Assembly (NCBI GenBank): GCA_027492035.1
Contig: JAOZFT010000032.1
Span: forward strand, 1-64,000
Reading direction: 5' to 3'
DNA: 64,000 nucleotides
From: Thermoproteota archaeon
GTDB lineage: Archaea; Korarchaeota; JAOZGF01; JAOZFZ01
In this document: piece by piece, positions 15,440-51,587 of the stretch
Numbering within the stretch: the first letter of the stretch is position 1
Layout: the number at the start of each line of letters is the position of its first letter
Translations under genes and position numbers: made by a program
Notes under the pieces: model-generated
The model's input: only the letters and a program-made list of their open reading frames with translations
The model's database searches: none
Told to the model about the DNA's origin: nothing

Positions 15440-15444
15440 ATTCT

Positions 15445-33609: not shown

Positions 33610-34884
33610 TTGGCTTCTTCAAGCATTAAGGAAGAGATAGAAAAGGCAAATCAGGAATCTGTTACAAGAATGATGGAGTCAGATCCACTGTGGGTCGATA
33701 TAGGATTTGCTAAGAAAGTAATTCCGGGAATGAAGGATTATAAACTGATACATGCAGGTCCCCCAATTGAATGGGAAAGAATGAGCGGACCCATGAGAGG
33801 GGCAATAATAGGTGCTATACTCTACGAAAAGTGGGCTGAAACACCTAAAGAAGCTGAGGAATTAGCTAAGTCAGGTAAAGTTAGTTTCGAACCTAACCAT
33901 CACTATAACGCAGTAGGTCCCATGAGCGGGGTTATTTCCCCAACTATGCCAGCAATTGTTCTGAAAGATAAAAAGTATGGGAACCAAACCTATTCTCTCC
34001 TTAATGAAGGAATAGGGAAAGTGCTCCGTTACGGCGGCTACGACAAGGAAGTAATAGATAGGTTAAACTGGATAAGAGACGTCTTAGGCCCAGTTTTAGA
34101 AGCTACAATAAAGGAAGTAAAGAAGGAGAAGGAAGGTGTAGCTTTAAAACCAATTATGTCGCAGGCTCTCCACATGGGTGACGAATGCCATAACAGACAT
34201 GTAGCTGCTACTTCTCTCTTCCTGAGGGAAATAATTCCTTACATGATGCAGACAAGGTTAGACAAGAAAGACCTAATTGATGCATACAACTTCATGAACA
34301 AAAATAACTTCACTTTCCTAGGGTTCGCTATGGCTGCAGCTAAGGCAATGACTTTAGCAGCTCACAATATTAAGTACAGTACAATAGTGACTGTCATGAG
34401 TAGGAACGGTACAGACATAGGTATTTGGGTTAGTGGTTTAGGTAATGAATGGTTCACTGCACCAGCTCCTGTACCTAAGGGTGTTTGGTTCCCAGGGTTC
34501 AGTGAGAAAGATGCTAACCCTGATCTAGGAGACAGCGCCATAATGGAAACAGCTGGTATAGGAGGATTTGCTATGGCGGCAGCACCCGCGATTGTAGCCT
34601 GGGTTGGAGGATCTGTTTCCTTCGCTGTTGAAAACACTAAAAAGATGCAAGAAATCTGTTACACCAAACATAAATACTTCACCATACCCTATCTTGAATT
34701 TGAAGGAACCCCTACAGGCGTAGATATAAGAAAGGTTGTGAAGACAGGGATAACTCCAACTATAAACACAGGCATTGCTCACAAGGAAGCAGGAATAGGT
34801 CAAGTGGGGGCAGGAATTGTGAAATTCCCAATGAAGATGTTTAAAGATGCGTTAAAAGCCTTTGCAGAAAAATATGGGTTATAA
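33610..34884 (+). CDS. allG: DUF1116 protein, AllG/YlbE-like oxamate carbamoyltransferase subunit
   Basis: 424 residues. The start is TTG 33610 behind GGTGA. It opens with ANQESVTRMMESDPLWVDI and VIPGMKDYKLIHAGPPIEW, then has LHMGDECHNRHVAAT, VTVMSRNGTDIGIWVSG and FTAPAPVPKG, the conserved stretches of the DUF1116 family. In E. coli the homologue works with FdrA (AllF) and YlbF (AllH) as oxamate carbamoyltransferase: oxalurate plus phosphate gives oxamate plus carbamoyl phosphate. All partner genes are within 9 kb here. The gene is followed after 54 bp by the DUF2877 partner. Confidence 0.9.
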   Translation: MASSSIKEEIEKANQESVTRMMESDPLWVDIGFAKKVIPGMKDYKLIHAGPPIEWERMSGPMRGAIIGAILYEKWAETPKEAEELAKSGKVSFEPNHHYNAVGPMSGVISPTMPAIVLKDKKYGNQTYSLLNEGIGKVLRYGGYDKEVIDRLNWIRDVLGPVLEATIKEVKKEKEGVALKPIMSQALHMGDECHNRHVAATSLFLREIIPYMMQTRLDKKDLIDAYNFMNKNNFTFLGFAMAAAKAMTLAAHNIKYSTIVTVMSRNGTDIGIWVSGLGNEWFTAPAPVPKGVWFPGFSEKDANPDLGDSAIMETAGIGGFAMAAAPAIVAWVGGSVSFAVENTKKMQEICYTKHKYFTIPYLEFEGTPTGVDIRKVVKTGITPTINTGIAHKEAGIGQVGAGIVKFPMKMFKDALKAFAEKYGL

Positions 34885-34938
34885 AACCCATCCCTTATTC
34901 TTTTTTGCCTACAAAAATATGCGAAAGACCGATTTTTG

Positions 34939-35898
34939 ATGCATTTAGAAAGTATTGGCGAAATAGCTTTAAATGAAATAACCAAGTCAGAAGGGGAAAG
35001 TAAATTAGGGACAGTGTTGAACGTTTTCAAATCCACAGCCTACATAAAAACAATAAGTAATGAATTAATTATATTAACCACCCTCCCCTTAAAATCCCCT
35101 ATAACCATGAACTTAAACTATAGAGGTAACCTTAAATCTGTTTTAAAACCTTTAGCAAAAATTAAAGTAAGGGACGGTAAACTTCAAACAAATGGTTTCA
35201 CAGCATCTTTAGTTGAAGCCAAAAAATATGTTGTTCAAAAACAATGCCTTAACGCTGATGTATTGTTTTCTATTCTGGAAAAAGATTTCCGAAACATCCT
35301 TTCTCTCTTAAACCTTGAACTTTATAATGCATCAATTACTTGGTTAAAAACTTATCAAGTAGTTACCGAAAAGTTTATGGAGTGTCTTAACGAAACTAAA
35401 AAATTGAAAAATAATTTACAGAACTCAATTTTAAATTTTTTAACTAAAATTATAGGGTTAGGGCCTGGTTTCACCCCTTCAGGGGATGACTTTGCGGCAG
35501 GTTTTCTTTTCATATTCAACACCTTTTCTCCCTTACTCAAACTTAAAAAAATAAAAATAAGCAATAGTATCCTCTTCTCCCACACAAATTGGGTTAGTGG
35601 AAAAATAGTAGATTATATACAGCGAGGTATTGCTGATGAAGTGCTTTACAAGGTTCTTTGCTGCTTAAAGAACCTTCAAAGGAATTCTTTAACAGATTCC
35701 TTCCTAGACCTGATTTCAAGGGGTCATACCACCGGAGTAGATCTTGCGATGGGGTTTCTTGCAGCTATTTCCTTTCTACAAGATACTGCCTATAACTCAA
35801 GTTTAACTTCTAAACTGATCCTTTTCTTGCTTGAAAATACAAAGCAAGTTTTGTTTGTTGGGGGAGATGGGAACCTAAGGAAATTACCTAAGAACTAA
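34939..35898 (+). CDS. allH: DUF2877 protein, AllH/YlbF-like oxamate carbamoyltransferase subunit
   Basis: 319 residues. The two family signatures are clear: GLGPGFTPSGDDFAAGFLF (about residues 174-192) and the C-terminal SRGHTTGVDLAMGFLA. DUF2877 proteins co-occur with FdrA and DUF1116 and form part of the oxamate carbamoyltransferase. ATG 34939 has no good SD. An AAAAATA element about 23 bases upstream could direct a leaderless transcript, although readthrough from allG is as likely. The N-terminal third is more diverged than the rest. Confidence 0.87.
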   Translation: MHLESIGEIALNEITKSEGESKLGTVLNVFKSTAYIKTISNELIILTTLPLKSPITMNLNYRGNLKSVLKPLAKIKVRDGKLQTNGFTASLVEAKKYVVQKQCLNADVLFSILEKDFRNILSLLNLELYNASITWLKTYQVVTEKFMECLNETKKLKNNLQNSILNFLTKIIGLGPGFTPSGDDFAAGFLFIFNTFSPLLKLKKIKISNSILFSHTNWVSGKIVDYIQRGIADEVLYKVLCCLKNLQRNSLTDSFLDLISRGHTTGVDLAMGFLAAISFLQDTAYNSSLTSKLILFLLENTKQVLFVGGDGNLRKLPKN

Positions 35899-36074
35899 AA
35901 CATTTATCTTTTTTCAGGGAGGAAAAGTAAACATTTAAAAATGAAGCCTTTCCTGTGAAAGGGTATTACCCATACTCCCCTACAATTCCTTTAATGAATG
36001 TCTCAGGGGGAAAACATGTTAAAGAACTGTTTTTCTTATTCTGAAAAGGGTGAAGTAATGCAGGTGAAATTTAT

Positions 36075-38459
36075 TTGAGGCAGAAATATATAGGTAAAGC
36101 TTTACCTCAGCTTGATTCATTTCATAAAGTTACCGGTATAGCCAAATACACACACGACATCTCCCTTCCCGGTATGCTCCACGTTAAACTCGTAACTAGT
36201 ACGGAGCCACATGCAGAAATAATCAACATTGATGCAAGTGAAGCTTTAAAAATTCCTGGAGTGGTGGCAGTTCTTACAGGGAAAGATTTTCCTTACAGGC
36301 TTGGGATTTATGTAGGAGATAGAGATGTTTTGGCAATTGACAAAGTTAACTGGGTAGGTCATCCTGTAGCCGCTGTAGTTGCCGAAACAATGGAGGCAGC
36401 TGAGAAAGCCATTGACTTGGTTGAAGTAGATTATAAGCCTTTGAAACCTGTCTTCGACCCCTTTGAAGCTTTAAAGGAAGAAGCGCCGATTATCCACCCA
36501 AAACTTGGTGAATATAGACGTGCACCTGCTTTTACGCCGGTTCCAGGAACAAATATAGCTAATAAATTCACTTTAAGGAAGGGAGATGTGGAGAAAGGGT
36601 TTAAAGAAGCAGATGTGGTGGTTGAAAACAGATTTTACATGCCCTTCGTAAGTCACTGTTACATGGAGACACAATCCGTGGTTGCACATTACCACAAAGA
36701 CGGGACAATTGAAATATGGACGAGTGCACAGTCTCCATTCGCTGTAAGGAACCTAATGGGTTTGTCACTAGGTATCCCTATCGGTAAAATAATTATTTAT
36801 CAGCCCTTTGTGGGAGGAGGTTTCGGAGGTAAAGCAGGGTTACATTGGGAACCATTGGCAGCCTTAATTTCTAAAAAGGTAGGTTACAAACCTGTTAAGC
36901 TTAAACTTTCAAGGAAGGAACAGTTTACTTCAGCACCTGTAAGGGAAGGGTTCCATGCAGAAGTTAAAGTAGGGGCTAAAAGAAACGGTAAATTAACAGC
37001 TTTAAAAGCAAAATTCATTCTTGACAGTGGAGCATTCGCAGATTACACAGTAAATGTTTCTAGAGCTGCAGGTTACTCTGTGGGGGAAGTATATGACATT
37101 CCTAATGTGTACTGTGACTCCTTAGCTGTTTACACAAACAAAGTACCTACTACAGCTATGAGAGGTTTTGGTCACCCGGAAAGTGCGTGGGCTGTTGAAA
37201 GATCCATTGAAATGTTAGCTAACGAATTAAAAATGGATCCCCTAAAACTAAGGTTAATGAATGTTGTTAAAGCAGGCATATCAACAACCGTAACAGGTGA
37301 AAGACTTAGGGAAGATGCAGGTAATCCAGTCCAGTGTTTGGAGGCTGTAGCTAAAGCAATTAACTGGGGTAAAACCGAAGAAAAACCCAAGGAACCTTGG
37401 AAATTTATAGGTAAAGGGTTAGCTGTTTTCTCCAAGGGTCCAGCTCAACCTCCTAATGCTGCTTCTGCAGCTATTATAAAAATAAATGAGGATGTAACTG
37501 TCGATTTAATGGTTGGGACTGGAAACTTCGGACAAGGCACCCTAACAAGTCTGGCGCAAATTGTCGCTGATGAATTGGGGGTACCTGTAGAAAAAGTAAG
37601 AATAAGAACTATGCGTAGTACAGACACTGTAGCCTATACTTGGCAAACAGTAGGTAGTAGAGGCCTTTTCACTGATGGAAACGCTGTGCTTGAAGCACTA
37701 AAGGATGCTAAAAAACAAATAAAGGAAGTAGCTTCACAGGTCCTTAGAGTTAAGCCTGCAGATTTGGAAATAAAAGACGGAAAAGTTATGGTAAAGGGCA
37801 GACCCTGGGAAAATGTCCCTTTGAGTGACATAGTCATGGGATATACTTACCCCAATGGCAACTCTATAGGAGGCCCAATAATAGGTAGAGGTAAATACAT
37901 CTCCCCAATAAATACTTATTTAGATCCTGAAACAGGTCAAGGAATACCCACTATCTTCTACACCTTTGGTGCTGCTGCATGCAAAGTTGAAGTTGACGTC
38001 CTTACAGGTAAAGTGAAAGTGCTGGAAGCTGCCCAGGCTTTCGATCTAGGAAAAGCCATAAACCCATTACTTGTCCGTCAACAAGTTGAAGGGGGCTTTA
38101 TAATGGGTCTAAGTGTAGCGTTATTTGAAGAGATACAATTTGATGAAAGAGGGTGGGTTCTTAACCCTAACTTCTCAACTTACTGGGTTGCCAGGGCTGC
38201 AGATATTCCTTCAAAAATAGACACTATACCAGTGGAGAATCCTCAGAAAGATGCACCTTACGGCGCAAGAGGGATAGGGGAAGTAGTAATGTTAGGTGTC
38301 CCCCCTACAATAGCCAACGCTGTACAGAATGCAATAGGGGTAAACATCAATAATTTGCCTTTAACGCCTGAAAACGTTTGGAAAGCTATAAAGAAGCAGA
38401 GGCCTGAATTGGTAGAAGAAATAAAGAAGAAATTGGTTTCATGGAAATGGAAAGTTTAG
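36075..38459 (+). CDS. Xanthine dehydrogenase-type molybdopterin large subunit
   Basis: 794 residues, the normal size of a separate Mo-pterin subunit. The start is TTG 36075, seven bases after AGGTGA. It has QPFVGGGFGGKAGLHWEP and TTAMRGFGHPESAW for pterin binding, and a C-terminal GARGIGEVVMLGVPP with the catalytic Glu. The AYRCSFR loop of aerobic CO dehydrogenase is absent (RGFGHPES in its place), so it is not CoxL. It hydroxylates a heterocycle or aldehyde; purine is favoured by the neighbouring ureide genes. It is first of three genes in the standard large-FAD-[2Fe-2S] order. Confidence 0.88.
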   Translation: MRQKYIGKALPQLDSFHKVTGIAKYTHDISLPGMLHVKLVTSTEPHAEIINIDASEALKIPGVVAVLTGKDFPYRLGIYVGDRDVLAIDKVNWVGHPVAAVVAETMEAAEKAIDLVEVDYKPLKPVFDPFEALKEEAPIIHPKLGEYRRAPAFTPVPGTNIANKFTLRKGDVEKGFKEADVVVENRFYMPFVSHCYMETQSVVAHYHKDGTIEIWTSAQSPFAVRNLMGLSLGIPIGKIIIYQPFVGGGFGGKAGLHWEPLAALISKKVGYKPVKLKLSRKEQFTSAPVREGFHAEVKVGAKRNGKLTALKAKFILDSGAFADYTVNVSRAAGYSVGEVYDIPNVYCDSLAVYTNKVPTTAMRGFGHPESAWAVERSIEMLANELKMDPLKLRLMNVVKAGISTTVTGERLREDAGNPVQCLEAVAKAINWGKTEEKPKEPWKFIGKGLAVFSKGPAQPPNAASAAIIKINEDVTVDLMVGTGNFGQGTLTSLAQIVADELGVPVEKVRIRTMRSTDTVAYTWQTVGSRGLFTDGNAVLEALKDAKKQIKEVASQVLRVKPADLEIKDGKVMVKGRPWENVPLSDIVMGYTYPNGNSIGGPIIGRGKYISPINTYLDPETGQGIPTIFYTFGAAACKVEVDVLTGKVKVLEAAQAFDLGKAINPLLVRQQVEGGFIMGLSVALFEEIQFDERGWVLNPNFSTYWVARAADIPSKIDTIPVENPQKDAPYGARGIGEVVMLGVPPTIANAVQNAIGVNINNLPLTPENVWKAIKKQRPELVEEIKKKLVSWKWKV

Positions 38460-38471
38460 AGGTGAAGAAAA

Positions 38472-39353
38472 ATGTCTTTTGGTGCACCCTATATTTCAAT
38501 ACCTGAATTCCAGTATCTTAAACCTAAAACTTTGAAAGAAGCGCTTGAAACACTTTCAAAATATGAAGATGAAGCTAAAGTGTTAGCTGGGGGTGTAGGC
38601 CTTTTAAATCTCATGAAAGAAAGACTAGTGGAGCCTGAATATGTAGTTGATATTAAAGGGATTCCTGAACTTAGGAAGGTAACATATGAAGAGGGGAAAG
38701 GGTTGACTATAGGGGCAACAGTGACTTTAAGTGAACTGGAAAACAATGAAATAGTGGAGAGGAAGTACACAGCCTTACATGAAGCAATAAAGGTTTTAAG
38801 TGACCCAGTTTTAAGAAATAGGTCAACATTGGTTGGAAATGTCTGTGAAGCCTTTGCTTGGATGGATAGTCTATCTCCTCTACTTGTTTTCGACGCTGAA
38901 TTAAAAGCTTTAAGCGTAAACGGTGAAAGAATGATAAAAGCCAAAGATTTTATTATCGGCCTAGCTGAAACAGCCTTGGAACCAAATGAACTGGTTGCAT
39001 CCATTTTTCTGCCAGAACCACCTAAAAACTCGGCAAGTAAATTTATTAAATTCAGGTCCAGAAGCGAATTCAGTGTGATCAACGTGGCTTCTCTCTTGGC
39101 AAACAGGGACAATCCTCCAGAAAGAATCTTGAGATTAGCTTATGGAGGAGCTACGCCTTCTCCCGTTAGGGTATTTGCAGTAGAAAAAGTTTTTAAGCAA
39201 CAGAAACCCTTAAATGAATTACTTAAGGAAGCTTTAGATGTTGTTTTCAAAGAAGTTTCCCCAATGGAAGACATGCATGCTTCTAAGGAATACAGGGAAC
39301 ATTTAATGGAAACTTTAACCATTAAAATTATTAGGGAACTCTGGGGTGAATGA
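38472..39353 (+). CDS. Xanthine dehydrogenase-type FAD subunit
   Basis: 293 residues. The FAD diphosphate motif reads VLAGGVGLLNLMK (family AGGTDLL), the second motif STLVGNVCEAFAWMDSLSPLL (family TxGGNxxxAxPxxD), and a C-terminal AYGGATPSPVR completes the CODH-flavoprotein-C type domain. It passes electrons from the [2Fe-2S] clusters to the final acceptor. Departures from consensus in the second motif (Val for Gly, Phe-Ala-Trp for the usual Ala-x-Pro) suggest a particular acceptor or subfamily. It is 12 bp after the large subunit gene, with AGGTGA in the gap. Confidence 0.9.
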   Translation: MSFGAPYISIPEFQYLKPKTLKEALETLSKYEDEAKVLAGGVGLLNLMKERLVEPEYVVDIKGIPELRKVTYEEGKGLTIGATVTLSELENNEIVERKYTALHEAIKVLSDPVLRNRSTLVGNVCEAFAWMDSLSPLLVFDAELKALSVNGERMIKAKDFIIGLAETALEPNELVASIFLPEPPKNSASKFIKFRSRSEFSVINVASLLANRDNPPERILRLAYGGATPSPVRVFAVEKVFKQQKPLNELLKEALDVVFKEVSPMEDMHASKEYREHLMETLTIKIIRELWGE

Positions 39354-39355
39354 AA

Positions 39356-39826
39356 ATGCCAAGAAAAATCACCTTCACCGTGAATGGTGTGAAAAAACAG
39401 GTGGAGGTTAAGGATAATGAGTTGTTGGCTGATGTTTTAAGAGATAAGCTTCAACTTACAGGTGTAAAGCAGGCATGTTGGAGAGGGGAATGTGGACTTT
39501 GCACAGTACTCCTTAACGGTAAACCTGTTAAATCATGCCTTATCTTAGCTGTTGAAGCAAACGGGGCTGAAATAGTTACCAGTGAAGGATTAATGGAGGG
39601 TGACAAACTATCCCATCTACAAAAGTCATTTGTTGAAAACGGAGCTCTTCAATGTGGTTTCTGCACACCAGCTTTCACATTGGTAACTCATTATTTACTG
39701 ACTCAAAAACCTGACGCGTCAGAAGAAGAAATAAGGGAATATATTAGTGGCTTAATTTGTAGGTGTGGAACCTATAATGAAATAGTGAAAGCTGTGAAAC
39801 AGGCTTCTCAATACTACAAAAAATAA
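39356..39826 (+). CDS. Xanthine dehydrogenase-type [2Fe-2S] subunit
   Basis: About 156 residues. The plant-type [2Fe-2S] ligands lie in CWRGECGLCTVLLNGKPVKSC and the second cluster ligands in CGFCTPAF plus CRCGTY, the canonical small subunit of molybdenum hydroxylases. ATG 39356 is six bases after GGTGA; ATG 39350 overlaps the FAD subunit stop and is an alternative. It ends 32 bp before the end of the convergent FdrA-domain gene. That gap is T-rich on the plus strand and probably terminates this operon. Confidence 0.94.
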   Translation: MPRKITFTVNGVKKQVEVKDNELLADVLRDKLQLTGVKQACWRGECGLCTVLLNGKPVKSCLILAVEANGAEIVTSEGLMEGDKLSHLQKSFVENGALQCGFCTPAFTLVTHYLLTQKPDASEEEIREYISGLICRCGTYNEIVKAVKQASQYYKK

Positions 39827-39858
39827 GGAAATGAATTTCTTTTCCTCTTTTTCTTTCT

Positions 39859-40032
39859 TTAAAGGATTTTTGAAAGGATGTCCTTGTATTCTTTTTCTAG
39901 TTTAGGGGGCGGCTGCCAAGTGACGTGTACAGCCTTTATTTCTTGGTCAAGCAAGGCATTATAAAATATTTCTATGCCTATGTTTATTACTTTTAATTCA
40001 GATTTAAATAACTCCATCACTTTCTCACTCAT
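39859..40032 (-). CDS. Small FdrA-domain protein (57 aa)
   Basis: 57 residues from ATG 40032, nine bases behind GAGGTGA and 12 bases after the fdrA stop. The GTG at 40044 overlaps that SD. The core LKVINIGIEIFYNALLDQ followed by KAVHVTWQPP resembles the VINxGLxxFxxxLxxQGxxVVxVDWRPPA segment found in FdrA-associated proteins. That segment is sometimes annotated as an FdrA domain protein. The Asp of VDW is Thr here. It probably is a small extra subunit or the detached C-terminal piece of FdrA. Function is unknown. Confidence 0.7.
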   Translation of the reverse strand: MSEKVMELFKSELKVINIGIEIFYNALLDQEIKAVHVTWQPPPKLEKEYKDILSKIL

Positions 40033-40046
40033 TCCTTTTTTCACCT

Positions 40047-41660
40047 CTATTGTGGAAACAGGAAAGATTCATATGTTCTTTCTAATGTATCCTCTTTCAT
40101 TCTCCCCTTCGATGCCACTGCTGAAGCTAATATAGCCATTAAAGCATTAGTTGGAAGAACTGTAACACCTAAACTTTCCAGTTTCTTTGTTTGGAGCGAA
40201 AGGTTTTGGGGGTCTCTATCCGTCCCGCATACATGGGCTAAAATAGCTAAGTACCTTCCGTTTTTTTCAGCTGTTTCTTTTGCTTTCCTTATAGCTTCTG
40301 TATGGGCTTCAGCTGGGTCTGAATGTGAACCGTAACCTAGAACGAAATCAAGGAGTATAACAGCAACTTCTGGGTCCTTTGCCTCTTCTATCAACCTTAA
40401 ATTCCTAATCGTCGGGTCAATCATCGGATGAGCTCTGCCTATGGTGAACTCTTCCTCCCCTAAATCAACTACTGTGTGTTGAAAACTTTTGTAAGGGTTT
40501 TTTAATCCAAGCCTAGGTTCTAGGGGTGCATTGGAGTAAACGTCTCCCAAAGTTTCTTTTAAGATAATAAGTGACTCATACGTTAATGTTCCCCCTGTAA
40601 AAAGTCCCCTTATGTATTTCTGTTTTTCTTCAAATTGAGAATAAAGCTTTTCACTTTTCCTTAACAACTCCTCTGCAGGTATTGAAATCTTCTTTTCTGC
40701 CTCTTTGAAAAGTTTTTCGTCAAGGAGTCTTACCGACTCTAAAGCTGCTGCATGTAACGTTCTTGTTTGGACAAGTCTTTCCTTAAGTTGATTGGGTACT
40801 TCAAAAACTTTCCCGCCCATGAAACAGGTAACATATTTCTTTTTTGTGTTGTATGTTATATAATCAAGTATTTTTTTCTGAACTTCGGGATCTGGTGGTT
40901 TAGCCACTAGAGTTACTACTTTTGTTTCGGTATCTTTCTCTAAAGCCTTTATTGACTCTAAAGCCATTATTCCCCCCACTTTCTTTTTAACATCTCCTCC
41001 ACCTATTCCTATTCCCTGTGAAACACCTGAACCGGCTACAGTTATTAAAACACTTACCTCCTGTAAACCTGTTCCAGCTGCTGCAACTATGCCTATTGGT
41101 CCCTTATTTACTACGTTAGCGAAAGCTATTGCTTTGTTATTTATTATTGAGGTGCCTGCAGCAGCCCCCATTACAAGGAGACCCCTCTCCTTTGCGTATT
41201 CCTTTATTTCAAGTTCATCCTCAATGGGTACATGGTCACTGAATAAGTGCACGTGAATTCCTCTATCTAAAAGTTTCAGCGTTATTTCTTTAGCGTATTC
41301 CCCTGGGACGGAAACGATTGCTAAATTAGCATCAGGTAATGCCTCTAATGCAGTTTCTAAGCTGTAAAAGTATTGTCCAGCTTTTGGAGGCTTAGTTAGC
41401 ATTTTTTCAATTGTTTCAACAGCCTTATTTATTATTTCTTCAGTTGATGCGGAAACAGCTATTACCATGTCGCTTTCTCCAGCTATTTTCCCTTCCTCAA
41501 CCAATAAACCTAGTTTTTCCAGTATTTCCTTGTTTGTTTTTGTACCCATAACTACAGCTGCATCCATTACTCCCTCTATTTTTTTAGCTTGTTCTGACAA
41601 ATGGAGGAGCTGTAAAGAGTCCCTATAAAAATTCTTCTTCACCACATTTTTTACAGGCAA
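40047..41660 (-). CDS. fdrA: FdrA (AllF), acyl-CoA synthetase-like subunit of oxamate carbamoyltransferase
   Basis: About 537 residues. TTG 41660 follows GGTGA and gives VKNVVKKNFYRDSLQLLHL, the usual FdrA opening; GTG 41669 overlaps the SD. It has a succinyl-CoA-synthetase-like fold: IVSVPGEYAKEITLKLLDRG, GPIGIVAAAGTGLQEVSVLI, GSGVSQGIGIGGGD and a C-terminal LLDFVLGYGSHSDPA. In E. coli the homologue is an essential subunit of oxamate carbamoyltransferase. It lies in one operon with carbamate kinase (56 bp upstream) and the small FdrA-domain gene. Confidence 0.92.
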   Translation of the reverse strand: MPVKNVVKKNFYRDSLQLLHLSEQAKKIEGVMDAAVVMGTKTNKEILEKLGLLVEEGKIAGESDMVIAVSASTEEIINKAVETIEKMLTKPPKAGQYFYSLETALEALPDANLAIVSVPGEYAKEITLKLLDRGIHVHLFSDHVPIEDELEIKEYAKERGLLVMGAAAGTSIINNKAIAFANVVNKGPIGIVAAAGTGLQEVSVLITVAGSGVSQGIGIGGGDVKKKVGGIMALESIKALEKDTETKVVTLVAKPPDPEVQKKILDYITYNTKKKYVTCFMGGKVFEVPNQLKERLVQTRTLHAAALESVRLLDEKLFKEAEKKISIPAEELLRKSEKLYSQFEEKQKYIRGLFTGGTLTYESLIILKETLGDVYSNAPLEPRLGLKNPYKSFQHTVVDLGEEEFTIGRAHPMIDPTIRNLRLIEEAKDPEVAVILLDFVLGYGSHSDPAEAHTEAIRKAKETAEKNGRYLAILAHVCGTDRDPQNLSLQTKKLESLGVTVLPTNALMAILASAVASKGRMKEDTLERTYESFLFPQ

Positions 41661-41715
41661 ATTTATCACCTAAATTTTTAATTCTATTTCTCCTTCTTTG
41701 TTTCCAAGAGTTTAC

Positions 41716-42675
41716 TCATTTATTTTTGTATATTAAGGTCCCTGTTTTTCCATCTAAAGCGTCAACCGCTTTATTTAACGAGGTAATTATCGCCTTTTTC
41801 CCCCCAAACTCCAGAAACCTTATGCAAGCCTTTACTTTCGGCCCCATACTTCCAGCCAAGAAATGGCCCTCCTCTAAATATTTTTTGGCTTCTTCAATAG
41901 ACATTGTGTCAATGTCTTTCTCGTTTGGTTTTCCATAGTTCAATTTAGCTTTTTCTACATCCGTCAAGATAAGGAAAATGTCGGGTTTCACCACTTCAGC
42001 TAGTCTCTCCCCTGCTAAATCTTTATCTATCACTGCTTCAACTCCCTTTAATGAGCCATCCTTCTGCGAAACAACAGGTATTCCTCCGCCTCCTGAGGCT
42101 ATAACTATTACCCCTGCATTAACTAGCCTCTTTATTGCTTCCCCCTCTATTGGACGTATAGGGTCAGGTGAAGGAACAACTCTCCGGTACACTCGTTCAC
42201 CAGCAGGTTTCACTTTTCTAATGAAGTAATTTCTTTCTTTCTTCAATTCTTCAGCCTCTTCTAAAGTGTAAAACGGTCCAACGGGTTTATGTGGATCTTG
42301 GAAATCCGGATCGTCCTCTCTAACCAACACTTGTGTCACAATAGTTGCTACAGGAATGTTTATACCCTCTCTTTGTAAATAGTTTATTAATGTCTGTTGT
42401 AACATGTAACCTATTTGTCCTTGTGTCATAGCACCTAAGACATCTAAGGGTTGTGCAGGAACTTTACTTACTCCCTCTTCCTGTTGGATAAGTAAGTTAC
42501 CCACCTGAGGACCGTTTCCATGAGTAATAACTAAACCGTAGCCTCTTTTCACTATTTCAAGCAAGTGTTTACATGTTTCTCTAACGTTTCTAAACTGTTC
42601 TTCAGCTGTTCCTTTTTCATCGGCTTGTTTTATTGCGTTTCCTCCCAATGCAATAAGAATAACTTCTTTTTTCAT
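41716..42675 (-). CDS. arcC: Carbamate kinase
   Basis: 319 residues with all family motifs: LIALGGNAIKQ, VITHGNGPQVGNLL, VIASGGGGIPV, AVIDKDLAGERLAE, LTDVEKAKLNYG and AGSMGPKVKAC. It converts carbamoyl phosphate plus ADP to ATP plus carbamate, giving one ATP per turn. In this setting it would consume the carbamoyl phosphate made by the FdrA/DUF1116/DUF2877 enzyme (AllK role). The start ATG 42675 lacks a good SD. A TATA-like GATAAAAC about 25 bases upstream fits a leaderless message. Confidence 0.95.
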   Translation of the reverse strand: MKKEVILIALGGNAIKQADEKGTAEEQFRNVRETCKHLLEIVKRGYGLVITHGNGPQVGNLLIQQEEGVSKVPAQPLDVLGAMTQGQIGYMLQQTLINYLQREGINIPVATIVTQVLVREDDPDFQDPHKPVGPFYTLEEAEELKKERNYFIRKVKPAGERVYRRVVPSPDPIRPIEGEAIKRLVNAGVIVIASGGGGIPVVSQKDGSLKGVEAVIDKDLAGERLAEVVKPDIFLILTDVEKAKLNYGKPNEKDIDTMSIEEAKKYLEEGHFLAGSMGPKVKACIRFLEFGGKKAIITSLNKAVDALDGKTGTLIYKNK

Positions 42676-42807: not shown

Positions 42808-43590
42808 TTATTTTCTTTTAAGAACAATCCCCGCTGGATCTATTTCTTCCCTCAAAACTTTTAATTCCTTTTCAGTTGGAGAAGGAGTTTGAGGTATCTT
42901 TTCCGGGATTATCAGTTCAAAGCTTGTATTTTCAACCACTTCCTTAACAGTTACTCCCGGGTGTAGTGAAAGTAATTTCATCCTTTTAGTTTCTTCATCG
43001 AAACCCATAACCCCTAACTGTGTAATTACTCTGTAAGGACCTGTATCTTCCGGTAAACCAGCTTTTTCCCTTTCACCTGGCCCTGTTAAATAACCTGGCG
43101 TAGTTATGAAATCTACCTTCTTCACGAATCTTTTCTTGTCCTGCCTCATAATAATGATGGTTTTCCATGCAAGGGAGCCTGCGTCATTAGCCCCACCACT
43201 ACCAGGCAACCTAACCTTTGGTTTATCAATATCCCCTATCACTGTTGTGTTTATGTTCCCATACATATCTATTTGAGCGGCACCCAGGAAACCATAGTCA
43301 GCGTAACCAGCTTGTAAAAAGGACATTACATAATTCATTGAAGTAGCCATCACTGCCTTGTAGAAAGTTCTGGAGTCACCAACTGAAATAGGCAGGGTGG
43401 GAAGCTGAGGCCCTACTCCTCCTGCTTCAAAAATAATTAAGAGATGGGGTGCATGGGTTTTTTGGGCAAGTGAAGCTGCTATTATAGGTAAACCAGTGCC
43501 CACTAAAACTGATCTGTTATCTTTAAGCATTTTAGAAGCTGCGCAAGCCATTAATTCAATAGTAGAAAATCCTCCTTTATCCCTTTCCAC
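42808..43590 (-). CDS. CoA-transferase subunit B (glutaconate CoA-transferase/IpdB family)
   Basis: About 260 residues. Segments SVLVGTGLPIIAASLAQKTHAPHL, IIFEAGGVG and GSGGANDAGSLA are typical of GctB-like subunits. The Glu in FEAGG (residue 58 of the longer form) is placed like the catalytic Glu54 of glutaconate CoA-transferase, which suggests real CoA-transfer chemistry rather than the hydrolase activity of Glu-less IpdB relatives. GTG 43590 has GGTGA five bases upstream; GTG 43599 is the alternative start. It overlaps or abuts the subunit A stop. The acid substrate is not known. Confidence 0.82.
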   Translation of the reverse strand: MERDKGGFSTIELMACAASKMLKDNRSVLVGTGLPIIAASLAQKTHAPHLLIIFEAGGVGPQLPTLPISVGDSRTFYKAVMATSMNYVMSFLQAGYADYGFLGAAQIDMYGNINTTVIGDIDKPKVRLPGSGGANDAGSLAWKTIIIMRQDKKRFVKKVDFITTPGYLTGPGEREKAGLPEDTGPYRVITQLGVMGFDEETKRMKLLSLHPGVTVKEVVENTSFELIIPEKIPQTPSPTEKELKVLREEIDPAGIVLKRK

Positions 43591-43595
43591 AACTC

Positions 43596-44609
43596 TCACC
43601 TCTCCATCCAGGGAGCTTCCAACCTTACTTGAAGTTTCTCAAGTTTCTTCAAGTAGTTAAGCTTCTTCACTCCCCCTACTAAGTTTAAATATTCCACGAA
43701 GTCTTTAACACCGTAAACGTATTTGTCTAAATATTGCTCAACCCCTTCATCTGTTTTAGAAAGTTTGAGCCATTCACCAATATGTTCCTCATCAAAATAG
43801 TAAAGATACGGCATGTGACAGGGGTGGCTGCCGTAAGGCACCTCCACAACAGCATCTACGAGGAAGAAAGGAATAACTGTTCTGTCAGGCCTCTTCCTAA
43901 TTTCTTCTTCCTCAACTATCTCCTCAGTTGTAACAATTAACCTTCTAGCAGCCCTAGCTAATTCGAAATCCATAACCAATATTCCGTCAATTTGGGAGTT
44001 TCCGTAAATATCACATCTGTGTACATGCAGTATTGCAACATCTGGATAGCATGCAGGAACAAGGCATATTCTTTTCCCAGAGAAGGGGTCTTTCACAACC
44101 TTTGATGAACTTCTTTTAAAAGTGTCTGTTCCAAGCAAAACCCTTACAGGCATAAAAGGTAAACCTAAAGCCGCAGCTTCTAACCTCCATTGGAAAGCAG
44201 CGTTGCTCCATTCACTGGCTACTTTCACCTTGCCTTTTTCAACTGCTCTTCTTGAAGCTGGAGACAACCCCCTTAATTCATGTCCAAAACAGTAAGCAAC
44301 CTCTACCTTGCTTGCACAACCCGAAGCCATGAGCAAATCTGTGTCATGAACCCCTGTTTTCCCTCCAACAATCAAATCCTTCTTTTTCTGCCTAATTATT
44401 TCATAAACAGCAGCCATTGGAACTCTTACATGACCAAAGCCGCCGAAAGCAATGTAGCAGCCATTTTTGACGTATCTTTTCACCGCTTCCCTTAGATCCA
44501 TCCTTTTATCCTTTAATGTCCTAAACTTGTTCCTTTCCACCCATTTCCTATGCTCATCAGGATCATGCCAAGCTAGAAGTTCACCCTCACCTTCCTCGAC
44601 CACTTCCAT
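43596..44609 (-). CDS. CoA-transferase subunit A (glutaconate CoA-transferase/IpdA family)
   Basis: 337 residues. It has KRYVKNGCYIAFGGFGHVRVPMA-type glycine-rich N-terminal motif, LIVGGKTGVHDTDLLMASGC, ASEWSNAAFQWRLEAAALGLPFMPVR and AILHVHRCDIYGNSQIDG. These are conserved in GctA-like class I CoA-transferase alpha subunits. It forms an alpha/beta pair with the overlapping downstream gene. It shares a near-identical promoter with the arcC-fdrA operon, so it may be co-regulated. A short charged N-terminal extension (about 20 residues) precedes the family core. Confidence 0.83.
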   Translation of the reverse strand: MEVVEEGEGELLAWHDPDEHRKWVERNKFRTLKDKRMDLREAVKRYVKNGCYIAFGGFGHVRVPMAAVYEIIRQKKKDLIVGGKTGVHDTDLLMASGCASKVEVAYCFGHELRGLSPASRRAVEKGKVKVASEWSNAAFQWRLEAAALGLPFMPVRVLLGTDTFKRSSSKVVKDPFSGKRICLVPACYPDVAILHVHRCDIYGNSQIDGILVMDFELARAARRLIVTTEEIVEEEEIRKRPDRTVIPFFLVDAVVEVPYGSHPCHMPYLYYFDEEHIGEWLKLSKTDEGVEQYLDKYVYGVKDFVEYLNLVGGVKKLNYLKKLEKLQVRLEAPWMER

Positions 44610-44635: not shown

Positions 44636-44892
44636 TTTATTTGAGGAAGGTAAGGTGTCCCCTCTAAAATAAATATTTTACTACTTTCCTTTTGGTTCAA
44701 TTGACGATTAAGCCTAACCTATTCAGTTGGAAGTAATTATTAAAAAAATAAGACTATTCTTTGAACTTTTCAGCTTTAAGGTTATGTGTAAATATTTAAA
44801 AGAAATTAAGTTAGGAAAAAGAGAATCTGTTTTTAAAACGTTAAAATAAACAAGGAATTAACCAGTAAAGATAGAAAGAAAAAGAAGGGGAA

Positions 44893-45624
44893 TTAAATTT
44901 CTACTTTTTCCGAAATTGTAAAGTTCTTGGCCTTTTTCAACATGTCTTCAGGGACAGGTCTCTCCCCTATAAAGTAGGGGAACCTCTTTTTTATGAAACT
45001 GTCCCAGTCTTCTTTGGTTATATAAAAGACTCTTGCTCCTCCGAGTTCATGCTGATATTCAGGCCATGGCTTTTGTTTTTTACCCCATTTTAGTGCAAAT
45101 ACACGTATCCCTATGTAAGACTCGAAAGTCGCCCACCACTCCTTCACTCCAAGGTAGTCGAAAGCGTATTCAACTTTTGCAGCATATAGTGACGGACCTA
45201 ATCCTACTCCCCTTACAAATGACATTGTATGTAAACTATATGCTATGTCGTTGCTATATAACCTAGCATTCACTATTCCTGCTAATTTCCCGTCTATTGT
45301 CCCCAATAGTAAGTAATGATCTTTTATTCTGTACCTGTACCATGCAAGGATCTCTGCGTAAGTTCTCACTGCGACTATGTCGTAGAAATCTTTCTCTACA
45401 TCGAAATAGGGCCTTATTGCCTTTAAAACTTTTGGTACATCTTCTCTAGTTGCTTGGTGGACAACCATTTTTGTTCCATCTCTCAAAGTAAGTACTTTCG
45501 GTGGGTAAGGAGTGTTTTGCAGTACTGGTGACTCCGGAGGCCTTAAGTTTGGTTCTAAATCCTCAACTTTAACAGTATATTCAGTTGCTGAAACAGGACA
45601 AGGCGGTTTTAAAGCCACGTTCAT
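44893..45624 (-). CDS. GNAT-family acetyltransferase-like protein
   Basis: About 243 residues. The middle and C-terminal part has the acetyl-CoA-binding motif A in the form VRGVGLGPSLYAAKVEYAF (R/QxxGxG/A type). It is followed by LGVKEWWATFESYIGIRVFALKWG, where the last lines of a GNAT fold are expected. The first 45 residues are Pro-rich and not part of the fold. The substrate is unknown. It stands alone between the CoA-transferase and coxG-like genes on the same strand. The start is ATG 45624, with GGAGAG immediately upstream, or an inner GTG at 45618. Confidence 0.6.
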   Translation of the reverse strand: MNVALKPPCPVSATEYTVKVEDLEPNLRPPESPVLQNTPYPPKVLTLRDGTKMVVHQATREDVPKVLKAIRPYFDVEKDFYDIVAVRTYAEILAWYRYRIKDHYLLLGTIDGKLAGIVNARLYSNDIAYSLHTMSFVRGVGLGPSLYAAKVEYAFDYLGVKEWWATFESYIGIRVFALKWGKKQKPWPEYQHELGGARVFYITKEDWDSFIKKRFPYFIGERPVPEDMLKKAKNFTISEKVEI

Positions 45625-45764
45625 CACTCTCCTTTTTATTTTATTTAAAAAGCTTAAAGCTTACTTTTCTAACCTATTAGGAAATAAGTATGCATAAGTT
45701 TGTGGGTTCAAATTTAAATATTTCTAATTTTTCATTTATCTTTCGATTCTTCCTTTATGTTTTT

Positions 45765-46211
45765 TTAAGTTGCTTCTAATGATTCCTTCACGCATTCAAA
45801 CATTTTCTTAATCACTTTATCCATGGCTCCTTGGATCATTCCCTTTGCTAATCCCCCAAGTAAGCCACTTGTTTCTGCAGTTGCTTTCCAAGCAAAGGTT
45901 GTAGTGTTTGGTGATTCCTCCTCCAATTTTATCTCTACCTCTGAATTAAATGAACTGTTCACTCCTTTACCTTTTAAAGCAAGTCTTGCGAAGTAGTCAT
46001 CGGGTTTTTCCTCCAAAATTGCCACGTTTATATTGAAGGTTCCCTTAATAAACCCAACTCCAGCCTTGACTTTAGCTGTGAAAGATCTTTCTCCTGTCTT
46101 TTCGTATTCTTTTAAGCCTGGAACACATTTAACTATTTCATCTGTATTGGAAACAAACTCCCAAACTTTGTTCCGAGGCGCATTTATTAAGAACTTACCT
46201 TCAAACTCCAT
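45765..46211 (-). CDS. CoxG-like SRPBCC protein
   Basis: 148 residues from ATG 46211 (AGGGTGA eight bases upstream). The longer start at 46241 adds ten residues. It opens MEFEGKFLINAPRNKVWEFVSN, then IVKCVPGLKEYEKTGERSF, and ends with the amphipathic GLLGGLAKGMIQGAMDKVIKKMF, the layout of CoxG (carbon monoxide dehydrogenase subunit G). CoxG proteins bind a hydrophobic ligand and link molybdenum hydroxylases to the membrane and quinone pool. Here the partner would be the xanthine-dehydrogenase-type enzyme 6 kb away. Confidence 0.83.
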   Translation of the reverse strand: MEFEGKFLINAPRNKVWEFVSNTDEIVKCVPGLKEYEKTGERSFTAKVKAGVGFIKGTFNINVAILEEKPDDYFARLALKGKGVNSSFNSEVEIKLEEESPNTTTFAWKATAETSGLLGGLAKGMIQGAMDKVIKKMFECVKESLEAT

Positions 46212-46241
46212 ACGAAAGTCACCCTCTACAGGAAAATTCAA

Positions 46242-46643
46242 ATAGTAAAAGGTTACTTTCGCTTGCTCTTTTTAAATGTATCCTTCATTTTCTTGCTCTG
46301 AAAACTTTCTTAAGGCTTTTTCTAAGTTTTTCTCATGTTTTATATCAAATATAAAATTTAATGAGCCTACGTAGGCTGCAAATTAATGCTTATCCCTGTC
46401 TCTTCTTGAACAAAAGCCAATTCCCTTTGAAATTTATTCAAGTTTATTTATTGGGTTCTTAATAAAATAGGAAACACATCGGCTGAAAAAAGATAAAGTG
46501 AGGTTCTGAAACATTAAAATTTAAATATAAAGTGAAGGATAAGTATGAGTTATTCCCTTACGGAGGCATTTCCCGTCCAAAAAAGGGAAAAAATCTATGG
46601 AATCACTTAAGAATTTGTTTTTTAAAAATACGAGGGGTAAAAT
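46242..46643. other. Divergent regulatory region between coxG-like gene and nucleoside importer
   Basis: About 400 bp without an ORF. It holds a perfect 14-bp palindrome (46364-46377), an AT-rich TTTAAATATAAAG at about 46520-46532 that could be the TATA box of the rightward operon, and a small TTTCCC/GGGAAA stem (46569-46590) in the predicted leader. Confidence 0.4.
46364..46377. promoter_or_regulatory. Perfect 14-bp palindrome, candidate operator
   Basis: AGCCTACGTAGGCT is its own reverse complement and lies in an otherwise AT-rich divergent region. Its GC content and symmetry stand out, and it fits a binding site for a dimeric regulator of the purine/ureide genes. No regulator gene was seen nearby. 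Confidence 0.4.
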
Positions 46644-47786: not shown

Positions 47787-47841
47787 CCCCTTCCCCTTTT
47801 TTCTTTATTTTTTAAATATAACGCAATGGAGGTCTTTTGCT

Positions 47842-48900: not shown

Positions 48901-48901
48901 A

Positions 48902-49864
48902 ATGTTTCCATTAAGTGAAACAATTGCTAGTATAGTTGGGAGAGGAATAATGTTCGGTGCAGCTTTACTGCTAGCTTCCCTGGGAGAAATATTTGCCCAA
49001 AAATCAGGTTTCATGAATTTAGCCATGGAAGGATTAATGACGCTTGCAGCCTCCGTCTCTTACCAAGTTATGTTTTTAACAGGTAATCCAGCTTTAGCTC
49101 TTGCAGCAGCAATGGCTAGCAGTATGGCCGTCTCGTTCATAAGTGTTTATCTCAACCAAAGATTTTACCTTGACCAAGTAGTTGCAGGCATGGCACTCTA
49201 CATCTTCTCTTTCGGCCTAGGTGTTTATATCCATAGGGTTGTTTCTGGAGGAGTTACAGGCGTAAAATTTATTGAAGTACTTAAACCTATAAATATACCC
49301 TTACTATCTAATATTCCAATCCTAGGACCTATTCTTTTCAAACAAAACGTACTAGTCTACACGGCAATTATTTTGTCTTTTATTGCTTACATAGTTTTAT
49401 TCAGGACCAGTTGGGGCTTAACAGTTAGGGCGGTTGGGGAGAACCCTAAGGCTGCTGACAATGCCGGTATAAACGTTTATAGGACAAGGTACTTAGCGAC
49501 TCTACTTAGCGGGGCTGGTGCAGGTTTAGGTGGGGCATACATTGTCTTAGCAGTGCTAGGCAATTTCCAAGAACTTGTAGTTAGCGGAAGAGGATGGATA
49601 ACCATTGCAATGGTTATTTTTTCGCAATGGAACCCCCTTTACGCAATAATAGGTTCCTTCTTTTTTGGTACCATGGAGTCGGTGGCGAAATTCATGGAAA
49701 TAACTAGAGAAATATCTATTACCGGAGGTATACCCTACCAGTTTTTCTGGATGATACCTTACATAGCCAGTATTTTAGCTTTAGTGGTAGCCTTTAAGAA
49801 AGCAGCTCTACCCTCTGCTTTGTTTAAAGTTTATAAAAGAGAAGAAGCTATAAGTGAAGTATAG
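48902..49864 (+). CDS. Nucleoside-type ABC importer permease 2 (YufQ/BPD_transp_2 family)
   Basis: 320 residues with eight to ten membrane helices. ASLGEIFAQKSGFMNLAMEGLM is the conserved opening (the family reads GEvfaerSGvlNlGiEGmM), with WGLTVRAVGENPKAADNAGINVYRTRYLA as the ATPase-coupling segment. It starts one base after the stop of permease 1, so they are co-translated. It is followed by 133 bp before the best ATPase start. Confidence 0.92.
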   Translation: MFPLSETIASIVGRGIMFGAALLLASLGEIFAQKSGFMNLAMEGLMTLAASVSYQVMFLTGNPALALAAAMASSMAVSFISVYLNQRFYLDQVVAGMALYIFSFGLGVYIHRVVSGGVTGVKFIEVLKPINIPLLSNIPILGPILFKQNVLVYTAIILSFIAYIVLFRTSWGLTVRAVGENPKAADNAGINVYRTRYLATLLSGAGAGLGGAYIVLAVLGNFQELVVSGRGWITIAMVIFSQWNPLYAIIGSFFFGTMESVAKFMEITREISITGGIPYQFFWMIPYIASILALVVAFKKAALPSALFKVYKREEAISEV

Positions 49865-49997
49865 GATCCTCAGAGAGGCGATATTGAAATGGTTCCTTTT
49901 TTCTTCGGTACCTTTATTAATTGGAAAAAGGTTAAGTGTATTTTTGGTTTTTCGAAAATTTCAATATGTAAAAAATTTTTTGATGGGGGAGCCATTA

Positions 49998-51587
49998 ATG
50001 GGAAAACAATACACAAAGGGAGAAATCAGGGAAAAATTGACTAAATTAGAGATAGGAACCACCGTTCTGGAAATGAAAAACATAACTAAAACATTTCCAG
50101 GTGTTGTAGCGGATGACCATGTTAATTTCGAATTGAAGAAAGGTGAAATTCATGGCTTACTTGGGGAAAATGGAGCAGGTAAAACAGTTCTTATGAGTGT
50201 TTTATATGGTCTCTACAAGCCTGATGAAGGCGAGATATGGTTAGCCGGTGAAAAAGTTGACATAAAATCCCCTAAAGACGCTATAGAGCTGGGTATTTCA
50301 ATGGTTCATCAAAGGTTTGCGTTAGTTAAAAACATTACTGCTTTAGAGAACATAATTCTTGGAACTCAATCCTCCAAGAAATTCTTTCTTGATGAGAAAG
50401 AGGCCGAGGAAAAAGTAAAGAAACTTTCAGAAAAATTCGGGTTGGAAGTGAAACTAAACTCTTTAGTAATGGATTTATCAATGGGTGAAAGGCAGAAAGT
50501 TGAAATTTTAAAAGCTCTCTACCGTGGCTCAAACATTTTAATACTTGATGAACCCACAACCATGATTACCCCTCAAGAAATCGATTCATTATTTGAAACA
50601 TTAAGGAAAATGGTTAAGGAAGGGCTATCCATCGTGTTTATCTCCCACAAAATACCTGTTGTCCTAAGAGTAACTGACAGAATAACTATTTTAAGAAACG
50701 GGAGAGTGATAACTACTGTAAAAACAAGTGAAACAAATGAAAGGGACCTAGCAGTGAAAATGGTTGGGAGGGAAGTTCTTTACAGGCTTCCAAAAGTTAA
50801 AAGAGAAAGAGGTGAAAGAATTTTGCACATAGAAAATCTTTGGGCCCCTGGCGAAGAGGAAGGAGTTCCTGTTCTAAAAAGCATTTCCTTCTCCGTCCAT
50901 AAAGGTGAAATTCTAGGAATAGCGGGAGTAGCAGGTAACGGGCAGAAAGAACTGGTTGAGTGTATCTTGGGGCTTAGGAAAGTAAGTAAAGGGAAAATTT
51001 TCCTAAACGGGAAAGATTACACTAACAAATTTACAAGAGAAATATATGAAGCAGGAGTTGCTTGGATACCTGACGAAAAAGACAGGGGAGCAATTCTTGG
51101 TTTATCAGTTGCTGAAAATTTAGTTATGAAAAAATTCTATAAACCACCCTTCTCTAAAGGATTAATGTATAATGAAAAGGAATCCTTAAGCTTCGCTGAA
51201 AAAATTGTAAAGGAGTACGGTGTCAAAACAGCGGGAGTTAAGGCTCCAGTTAGAACACTTTCAGGGGGGAACATCCAAAGATTAATTCTAGCACGTGAAT
51301 TTTCAGCAAACCCTAAACTATTGATAGCTTTCAACCCAACCCAAGGCTTAGATGTCAACGCTACGGAATTCACTAGAAGAAAAATACTTGAATTGAGGGA
51401 AAAGGGATCAGGGGTGCTTCTTGTTTCAATGGACCTGGACGAAGTTATGATGTTAAGTGACAGAATAGCGGTAATGTATAAGGGGGAGATAGTAGGTATA
51501 ATTGATGCAGCTAAAGCTGAAAGATACGAATTAGGTTTAATGATGGCTGGATCCAAACGTTTAGAATCAAGCAACTGGGCCAGCTAA
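49998..51587 (+). CDS. Nucleoside-type ABC importer ATPase (two ABC domains)
   Basis: About 529 residues from ATG 49998 (GGGGGAG seven bases upstream). An in-frame start at 49854 overlaps permease 2 and adds 48 atypical residues. Domain 1 has Walker A GENGAGKT, signature LSMGERQK and Walker B LILDEPTT. Domain 2 has a degenerate P-loop (GVAGNGQKEL), an intact signature LSGGNIQR and NPTQGLD in place of Walker B DEP. The degenerate second half is normal for nucleoside and sugar importers of this family. It ends the four-gene importer operon. Confidence 0.93.
   Translation: MGKQYTKGEIREKLTKLEIGTTVLEMKNITKTFPGVVADDHVNFELKKGEIHGLLGENGAGKTVLMSVLYGLYKPDEGEIWLAGEKVDIKSPKDAIELGISMVHQRFALVKNITALENIILGTQSSKKFFLDEKEAEEKVKKLSEKFGLEVKLNSLVMDLSMGERQKVEILKALYRGSNILILDEPTTMITPQEIDSLFETLRKMVKEGLSIVFISHKIPVVLRVTDRITILRNGRVITTVKTSETNERDLAVKMVGREVLYRLPKVKRERGERILHIENLWAPGEEEGVPVLKSISFSVHKGEILGIAGVAGNGQKELVECILGLRKVSKGKIFLNGKDYTNKFTREIYEAGVAWIPDEKDRGAILGLSVAENLVMKKFYKPPFSKGLMYNEKESLSFAEKIVKEYGVKTAGVKAPVRTLSGGNIQRLILAREFSANPKLLIAFNPTQGLDVNATEFTRRKILELREKGSGVLLVSMDLDEVMMLSDRIAVMYKGEIVGIIDAAKAERYELGLMMAGSKRLESSNWAS

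Follow-up and report, generated by a model that had tools for sequence, protein, structure and literature searches.

What ring compound, if any, is broken down by an archaeon whose AllF-, AllG-, AllH- and AllK-type genes lie with those of a molybdenum (Mo) hydroxylase and a BMP-type importer? The question is raised by positions 33610-51587 of a stretch of 64,000 nucleotides (the window), positions 1 to 64,000 of contig JAOZFT010000032.1 in Thermoproteota archaeon assembly GCA_027492035.1, an archaeal assembly of 1.87 Mb that is 93% complete. Comparison with related loci gives roughly an even chance that the cluster encodes a nucleobase-degrading, ATP-yielding pathway other than the allantoin route, each of its reactions being predicted. 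A general order of events, in which the hydroxylase acts on the ring, the ring is opened, AllFGH converts the resulting N-acylurea to carbamoyl phosphate and AllK uses this to form ATP, is considered probable on the strength of comparative genomics.

AllG loci of archaea, Chloroflexi and Firmicutes (80 in all, with up to 10 kb per flank) were surveyed and annotated by tblastn with the window and cluster representatives. A PF04199 hydrolase related to isatin hydrolase, here called CYC, was present in 39 of the 80. The Mo-hydroxylase (XdhA) was found at 28/39 CYC loci versus 2/41 loci without CYC (Fisher p 2e-10), ring openers of the AtzD/barbiturase/cyanuric-acid-hydrolase type at 0/39 versus 12/41 (p 2e-4), and a GNAT-fold protein at 19/39 versus 1/41 (p 9e-7); these p values ignore shared descent, which counts against the proposal, and the AllG tree requires a minimum of four changes of the CYC label. 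All three patterns persisted when the survey was restricted to loci of 14 kb or longer (n = 55). Thus CYC and the AtzD-type openers replace each other, and the hydroxylase is regular only in CYC loci.

The loci were grouped into three classes. Class A contained AllFG(H), CYC and the Mo-hydroxylase, often with the GNAT-fold protein, and additionally thiolase/DUF35, Na+-pump decarboxylase, or CoA-transferase III plus a nitrilase-fold amidase (CoA, coenzyme A). Class B contained AllFGHK, an opener of the AtzD/barbiturase family, PucR and a xanthine-type permease. Class C contained AllFGHK and an isochorismatase between two copies of one protein ('k4'); DUF1116 loci with isochorismatase beside or between copies of k4 were L020, L023, L054, L055, L060, L061, L065 and L082, and k4, of about 513 amino acids, had no Pfam match.

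Proteins of the window were assigned using Pfam and NCBIfam profiles against curated cut-offs. The open reading frames named in a preliminary description of this DNA were all full length and at the coordinates it gave, and the features of the cluster are as follows.

33610..34884, plus strand: AllG-type subunit (DUF1116) of the carbamoyltransferase complex; PF06545, 296 bits (cut-off 27)
34936..35898, plus strand: AllH-type subunit (DUF2877); PF11392, 66 bits (cut-off 25)
36075..38459, plus strand: large Mo-binding subunit of the Mo-hydroxylase, distinct subfamily; PF02738 and PF20256 (MoCoBD_1/2)
38472..39353, plus strand: flavin adenine dinucleotide (FAD) subunit of the Mo-hydroxylase; PF00941 (FAD_binding_5), 155 bits
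39350..39826, plus strand: [2Fe-2S] subunit of the Mo-hydroxylase; PF01799 (Fer2_2), 90 bits
40047..41669, minus strand: AllF/FdrA-type subunit, succinyl-CoA-synthetase-like; NF004760, 447 bits (cut-off 433)
41716..42675, minus strand: AllK-type carbamate kinase; TIGR00746 (arcC), 419 bits (cut-off 358)
42808..43599, minus strand: CoA-transferase subunit B; PF01144 (CoA_trans), 123 bits
43596..44609, minus strand: CoA-transferase subunit A, glutaconate-CoA-transferase-like; PF01144, 131 bits
44893..45627, minus strand: GNAT-fold protein of 244 amino acids, conserved with these clusters; AlphaFold2 model and Foldseek
45765..46241, minus strand: CoxG-like protein, putative Mo-hydroxylase helper; PF06240, 94 bits
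46644..47786, plus strand: BMP/PnrA-type substrate-binding lipoprotein; PF02608, 159 bits
47755..48900, plus strand: importer permease 1; PF02653 (BPD_transp_2)
48902..49864, plus strand: importer permease 2; PF02653
49854..51587, plus strand: importer double ATPase; PF00005 (ABC_tran), two stretches

The preliminary description had placed AllF, AllG, AllH and AllK within about 9 kb on two convergent gene runs, and this was confirmed (33610-42675, 9.1 kb, all four over curated cut-offs); the three-subunit Mo-hydroxylase, CoxG, the CoA-transferase pair and the BMP importer likewise lie where it had put them, and their Pfam families hold. From 46241 downward the minus-strand run reads CoxG, GNAT-fold protein, CoA-transferase A, CoA-transferase B, AllK and AllF, with a 4-bp overlap between the two CoA-transferase genes. 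The best solved relative of CoA-transferase A was glutaconate CoA-transferase (1poi, E 1e-45), and a CoxG homologue adjoins the Mo-hydroxylase in locus L008 too.

Starting from a ureide, the FdrA/DUF1116/DUF2877 complex should yield carbamoyl phosphate, from which the carbamate kinase should generate ATP. In support, 63 other members of the AllF family, among them E. coli AllF and YahF, have 37 residues in common without exception, and the window AllF keeps all 37; AllK is over the carbamate-kinase cut-off. AllF, which matches the E. coli FdrA structure 3dmy, is 41% identical to YahF and 35% to E. coli AllF; AllG is 45% identical to E. coli AllG and 44% to YahG; AllH resembles E. coli AllH weakly (26% identity over 137 amino acids). 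In the AllG tree, the window sequence fell within an archaeal clade of 17 rows (support 98/90), 13 of whose 17 loci carry CYC, and E. coli AllG formed a very long separate branch; orthology of the window AllG to the demonstrated E. coli enzyme was not recovered. The closest AllG relative (85%) was that of Thermoproteota metagenome-assembled genome Flange_M5_B4. Among 29 genomes of the phylum searched, AllG was found in 3/3 genomes of the class and 0/26 others.

The window is assigned by its gene content to class A, because AllFGH, a hydroxylase with the motif GGGFGGKAG, the GNAT-fold protein, CoxG and the upstream thiolase/DUF35 subfamily are present. The genome has a single PF04199 protein, encoded on another contig and 41-52% identical to the AllG-linked CYCs, and on this likeness it is placed in the set as its ring hydrolase. 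CYC occurred in 2/3 of the AllG genomes of the phylum (the two proteins being 92% identical) and in 0/26 others. By alignment, it retains the metal motif HxGTHxD. Its structural model (predicted local distance difference test score (pLDDT) 85.9) gave a full-length match to isatin hydrolase with a template modelling (TM) score of 0.73; kynurenine formamidases matched too, and the Foldseek matches were 5nna, 4m8d and 4j0n. Isatin hydrolase opens a cyclic amide, and the relationship therefore fits the mutual exclusion of CYC and AtzD-type openers. The profile for the AtzD-fold barbiturase (PF09663) had no match in the window genome, yet a control also matched nowhere.

The large subunit of the Mo-hydroxylase scored below every NCBIfam equivalog cut-off (NF043082 (XdhA), 522 of 780; NF007426, 521 of 916). 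Its motif GGGFGGKAG is an instance of GGGFG[GCS]KAG, which is shared by the AllG-linked hydroxylases and absent from E. coli XdhA; the linked enzymes have Ala at the position of the purine-binding Glu in xanthine dehydrogenase. Xanthine dehydrogenase proper was rejected as an identification, the large subunit being under all cut-offs and having a different Mo-site motif. Two more Mo-hydroxylase gene sets are present in the genome (L097:5882-9587 and L098:3-1750, the latter cut by the contig end), and the large subunit at L097 is without the KAG motif.

As an indirect indication of substrate, NCS2 permeases at the loci were scored on uracil and xanthine models. Three bacterial CYC loci carried a permease over the uracil cut-off of 477 (L030, 701; L056, 639; L071, 703 bits), and the permeases of five further bacterial loci of this kind (L034, L041, L043, L053 and L075) scored higher on uracil than on xanthine, below cut-off. 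Among nine class B loci tested, six had permeases over the xanthine cut-off (L026, L046, L048, L058, L063 and L070). With uracil permeases at CYC loci and xanthine-type permeases at AtzD loci, transporter and class therefore vary together. The product acid would be malonate-like, because the CoA-transferase is glutaconate-type, elsewhere CYC is accompanied by CoA-transferase III and an amidase, or by subunits of a Na+-pump decarboxylase, and methylmalonyl-CoA mutase lies beside AllGH in two genomes.

These mutase genes, and a thiolase pair, lie upstream of AllG in the window:

29626..29976, minus strand: DUF35-like Zn-ribbon thiolase partner, directly downstream of the thiolase; the pair recurs in clusters of relatives
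29980..31215, minus strand: SCP2-type thiolase, probable member of the set; PF22691 and PF00108
31369..33054, plus strand: methylmalonyl-CoA mutase large subunit, possible member of the set; TIGR00641, 844 bits
33071..33469, plus strand: glyoxalase-fold protein, probable methylmalonyl-CoA epimerase, role from context; PF13669, 83 bits

Both pairs are probably linked to the set, because thiolases 56-64% identical to that of the window recur inside AllFG-CYC clusters of Chloroflexi and Clostridium, and mutase and epimerase genes also flank AllH-AllG in L104, from a genome of the same order. According to translations of the open reading frames, positions 25469-28591 encode a B12-binding subunit, a MeaB-like GTPase and a further methylmalonyl-CoA mutase large subunit, making two such subunits in the window with that at 31369-33054.

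The following pathway is proposed. The BMP importer would take up a nucleoside, from which a nucleoside hydrolase or phosphorylase would release the base. The Mo-hydroxylase would then oxygenate the ring, most likely converting uracil to barbiturate or thymine to 5-methylbarbiturate, and CYC would open the ring to give ureidomalonate, which is an N-acylurea with one more carbon than oxalurate. AllF-AllG-AllH would phosphorolyse ureidomalonate to malonamate and carbamoyl phosphate, from which AllK would produce ATP, CO2 and NH3. Finally, the malonate-type product would be converted to a CoA ester by way of the glutaconate-type CoA-transferase, the GNAT-fold protein and thiolase/DUF35, and in the thymine branch would be taken by methylmalonyl-CoA mutase; this is the least secure of the steps. 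Hydroxylation and ring opening rest on comparative genomics, and the two steps that follow are extrapolated from what their E. coli counterparts do (PMC11326118, PMC9843812). Since ureidomalonate is an N-acylurea like oxalurate, on which E. coli AllFGH acts (PMC11326118), transfer of its carbamoyl group to phosphate would be chemically parallel.

The GNAT-fold protein (44893-45627) had no match in Pfam or NCBIfam. It is, by its conservation, a new member of these clusters: 29 columns are invariant across 19 sequences, and it is conserved with the cluster genes in other phyla. Its AlphaFold2 model (pLDDT 88.6) gave many Foldseek matches to CoA-binding GNAT relatives, with modest TM-scores. Within CYC loci, the nitrilase-fold amidase was found at 0/19 loci with the GNAT-fold protein versus 7/20 without it (p 0.008), an exclusion that is not significant when all loci, or only the long ones (14 kb or more), are counted; the protein may conceivably perform an amide or CoA step that is done elsewhere by the amidase. 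A relationship to aldehyde dehydrogenases was considered and rejected, the matches in the PDB having E values of about 0.5, which is chance.

Enzymes of other routes were sought in the genome. Nine Amidohydro_1 proteins are present, the eight strongest of which were scanned against the models. Four were of the S-adenosylhomocysteine/5′-methylthioadenosine (SAH/MTA)-deaminase or SsnA type, one was an adenine deaminase, one was cytosine-deaminase-like and one was without assignment. The eighth (L103) scored 346 of the 357.85 required for allantoinase, but it passed the dihydroorotase model and belongs to a pyr gene group, next to genes resembling aspartate carbamoyltransferase subunits. Thus, no allantoinase was over cut-off among the eight proteins scanned in this 93% complete genome. 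A scan of four of the five M20 proteins gave no match to allantoate amidohydrolase; they fitted the DapE/ArgE or YgeY models instead. The sole Ldh_2 protein of the genome reached 202 of the 496 bits needed for AllD and was nearer sulfolactate dehydrogenase. At L118:1438-4008 of the same genome, an Ldh_2-family dehydrogenase gene is directly followed by a hydantoinase-A/caprolactamase-like gene, possibly a separate cyclic-amide route.

The allantoin/oxalurate route was rejected as the best reading, with neither allantoinase nor AllD over cut-off among the proteins scanned and the AllG tree separating the window from E. coli. The reductive pyrimidine route was likewise set aside: no dihydropyrimidinase was over cut-off among the proteins scanned, and the closest protein was the dihydroorotase-model match in the pyr group. 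The genome check proposed in the preliminary description (for allantoinase, AllD and dihydropyrimidinase) returned nothing over cut-off among these proteins. That description had called the cluster a ureide/purine energy island and inferred a single catabolic route giving ATP from a ureide nitrogen. Additions to it are the GNAT-fold gene, the upstream thiolase/DUF35 and mutase/epimerase pairs as probable members, and the PF04199 hydrolase on another contig. The expected AllFGH/AllK chemistry and the link to the Mo-hydroxylase are supported, and its suggestion that the carbamoyl donor could be another ureide stands; the purine/allantoin label was not supported, given these searches, the distance of AllG from that of E. 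coli and the uracil permeases of the bacterial relatives.

Several observations weigh against the pathway proposed here or against a pyrimidine as its substrate. CYC is on a different contig from the window cluster and was not found in G001, a genome that has AllFGH and is 94% complete. AllK was near only 4 of the 39 CYC loci, and ATP yield is therefore not common to the local clusters. There is no NCS2 permease in the window, and the BMP importer gives no ligand identity, the PDB relatives of its lipoprotein being of mixed specificity. A cytosine-deaminase-like subfamily (51-53% identical; L105:6794-8026, L009:15183-16445, L075:11353-12651 and L081:3355-4563) accompanies CYC clusters of other phyla, whereas its member in the window genome is unlinked; it was dropped as evidence for cytosine or pyrimidines, with the metal-binding His215 of CodA replaced by Leu and the catalytic Glu218 by Asp. 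The permease of bacterial locus L025 leans to xanthine, below cut-off, and the archaeal NCS2 permeases of CYC loci (L005, L006, L009 and L017) scored higher on xanthine than on uracil, weakly and all below cut-off. Because of this lean, the pyrimidine identity of the substrate, likeliest uracil or thymine by way of barbiturate and ureidomalonate, is likely but unproven, at about even odds.

The same permeases favor a purine-derived substrate for the same enzymes, in which a purine- or hydantoin-type ring would be hydroxylated and CYC would act on a cyclic ureide with a five-membered ring, giving an N-acylurea that resembles oxalurate. Purine nucleosides are frequent cargo of BMP importers, and the genome encodes a hydrolase of the YgeY-family M20 type over cut-off; this family also occurs in the reductive urate cluster of E. 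coli. We regard this explanation as unlikely, given that no allantoinase, AllD or allantoate amidohydrolase was recovered among the proteins scanned, the Ala at the purine-binding Glu position in a hydroxylase below all xanthine dehydrogenase cut-offs, and the CoA-transferase, decarboxylase and mutase genes, which suit a C3/C4 acid better than oxamate. An ordinary oxamate carbamoyltransferase, with oxalurate imported or made and cleaved as in E. coli and the Mo-hydroxylase unrelated, would account for the presence of all of AllFGHK, and oxamic transcarbamylase activity has been demonstrated for AllFGH of E. coli (PMC11326118). It is quite improbable in view of the strong hydroxylase link, the different clade of the window AllG and very long branch of its E. 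coli counterpart, the greater likeness of AllF to YahF than to E. coli AllF, and the lack of AllD or AllB over cut-off among the proteins scanned. The neighborhood could also be mixed, such that only AllFGHK and the hydroxylase form one system and the CoA, mutase and thiolase genes serve fatty acid or amino acid catabolism. Another mutase set and other acyl-CoA genes are in the window, and CoA genes are thus common here, but the recurrence of the thiolase subfamily with DUF35 inside CYC clusters of Chloroflexi and Clostridium, the near confinement of the GNAT-fold protein to CYC loci and the mutase and epimerase genes flanking AllGH in a second genome make this very improbable.

Other genes of the window were recorded as follows. 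Positions 20880-25188 contain an inosine-uridine nucleoside hydrolase (22445-23464) between energy-coupling factor (ECF)-type transporter genes; RihC, uridine-preferring and RihA models all matched it below cut-off. Translated open reading frames at 321-16449 and 17786-19869 correspond to A-type ATP synthase, complex-I-like genes and an HdrDE-like pair, which may serve the hydroxylase as electron and energy partners. Surface proteins at 51710-53410 and 59269-62454 have in common a C-terminal membrane region with a CFIATAT motif, and a homologue of the former is encoded within the importer operon of G001 (L110:2397-4190).

The proposed pathway was compared with published systems. Archaeal and comammox allFGHK with bmpA-nupABC have been read as oxalurate degradation beside biuret hydrolase (PMC12625717); the archaeal systems have AllFGHK and the BMP importer in common with the window, whereas the gene surroundings given in the passages covered list no Mo-hydroxylase, PF04199 hydrolase or CoA-transferase. 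The presence of these genes in archaea is thus already in print, and the association with CYC and the hydroxylase in the relatives is what is new. The E. coli allFGHK system (PMC11326118, PMC9843812) has the same four families, the AllF invariants are kept, and the same product, carbamoyl phosphate leading to ATP, would be expected; the window differs in being without allBCD partners over cut-off, in its AllG clade, in the Mo-hydroxylase link and in the CYC of its relatives. E. coli yahEFGIJ is an AllH/F/G/K-like set whose YahF is nearer the window than AllF is, and whose YahG is about as near as AllG; unlike the window, it has the amidohydrolase YahJ and no nearby Mo-hydroxylase. The reductive route of E. 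coli from uric acid (YgeW and YqeA; PMC12507026) likewise conserves the energy of the ureido group through carbamoyl phosphate and carbamate kinase, but its carbamoyltransferase family is unrelated, the route is reductive and E. coli XdhA is without KAG.

The first half of the proposed pathway, oxidation and opening to ureidomalonate, is that of the oxidative pyrimidine pathway (uracil dehydrogenase, barbiturase and ureidomalonase), a route from pyrimidine through barbiturate and ureidomalonate to malonate and urea known in a few bacteria (PMC3758960). In the proposal, CYC would replace the AtzD-fold barbiturase, and phosphorolysis with ATP gain would replace hydrolysis to urea. A literature search found no link of FdrA/DUF1116 to the oxidative pyrimidine route or to PF04199, which is weak evidence given thin coverage of subscription journals. 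We tentatively suggest, at slightly less than even confidence, that FdrA-DUF1116-DUF2877 is a broad N-acylurea phosphorolase family, and that its members in several archaeal lineages, Chloroflexota and anaerobic Firmicutes run an undescribed, energy-conserving oxidative pyrimidine pathway in which the Mo-hydroxylase, the PF04199 opener and often the GNAT-fold protein would take uracil or thymine to carbamoyl phosphate and malonyl- or methylmalonyl-CoA. The analysis also names one conserved uncharacterised protein, the GNAT-fold protein at 44893-45627. The oxidative pyrimidine route has been described as rare, hydrolytic and ending in urea; if the proposal is true, the genes described here would be candidates for a widespread variant in which the urea carbon of the ring serves to make ATP, and many genes annotated as oxamate carbamoyltransferase may act on other ureides.

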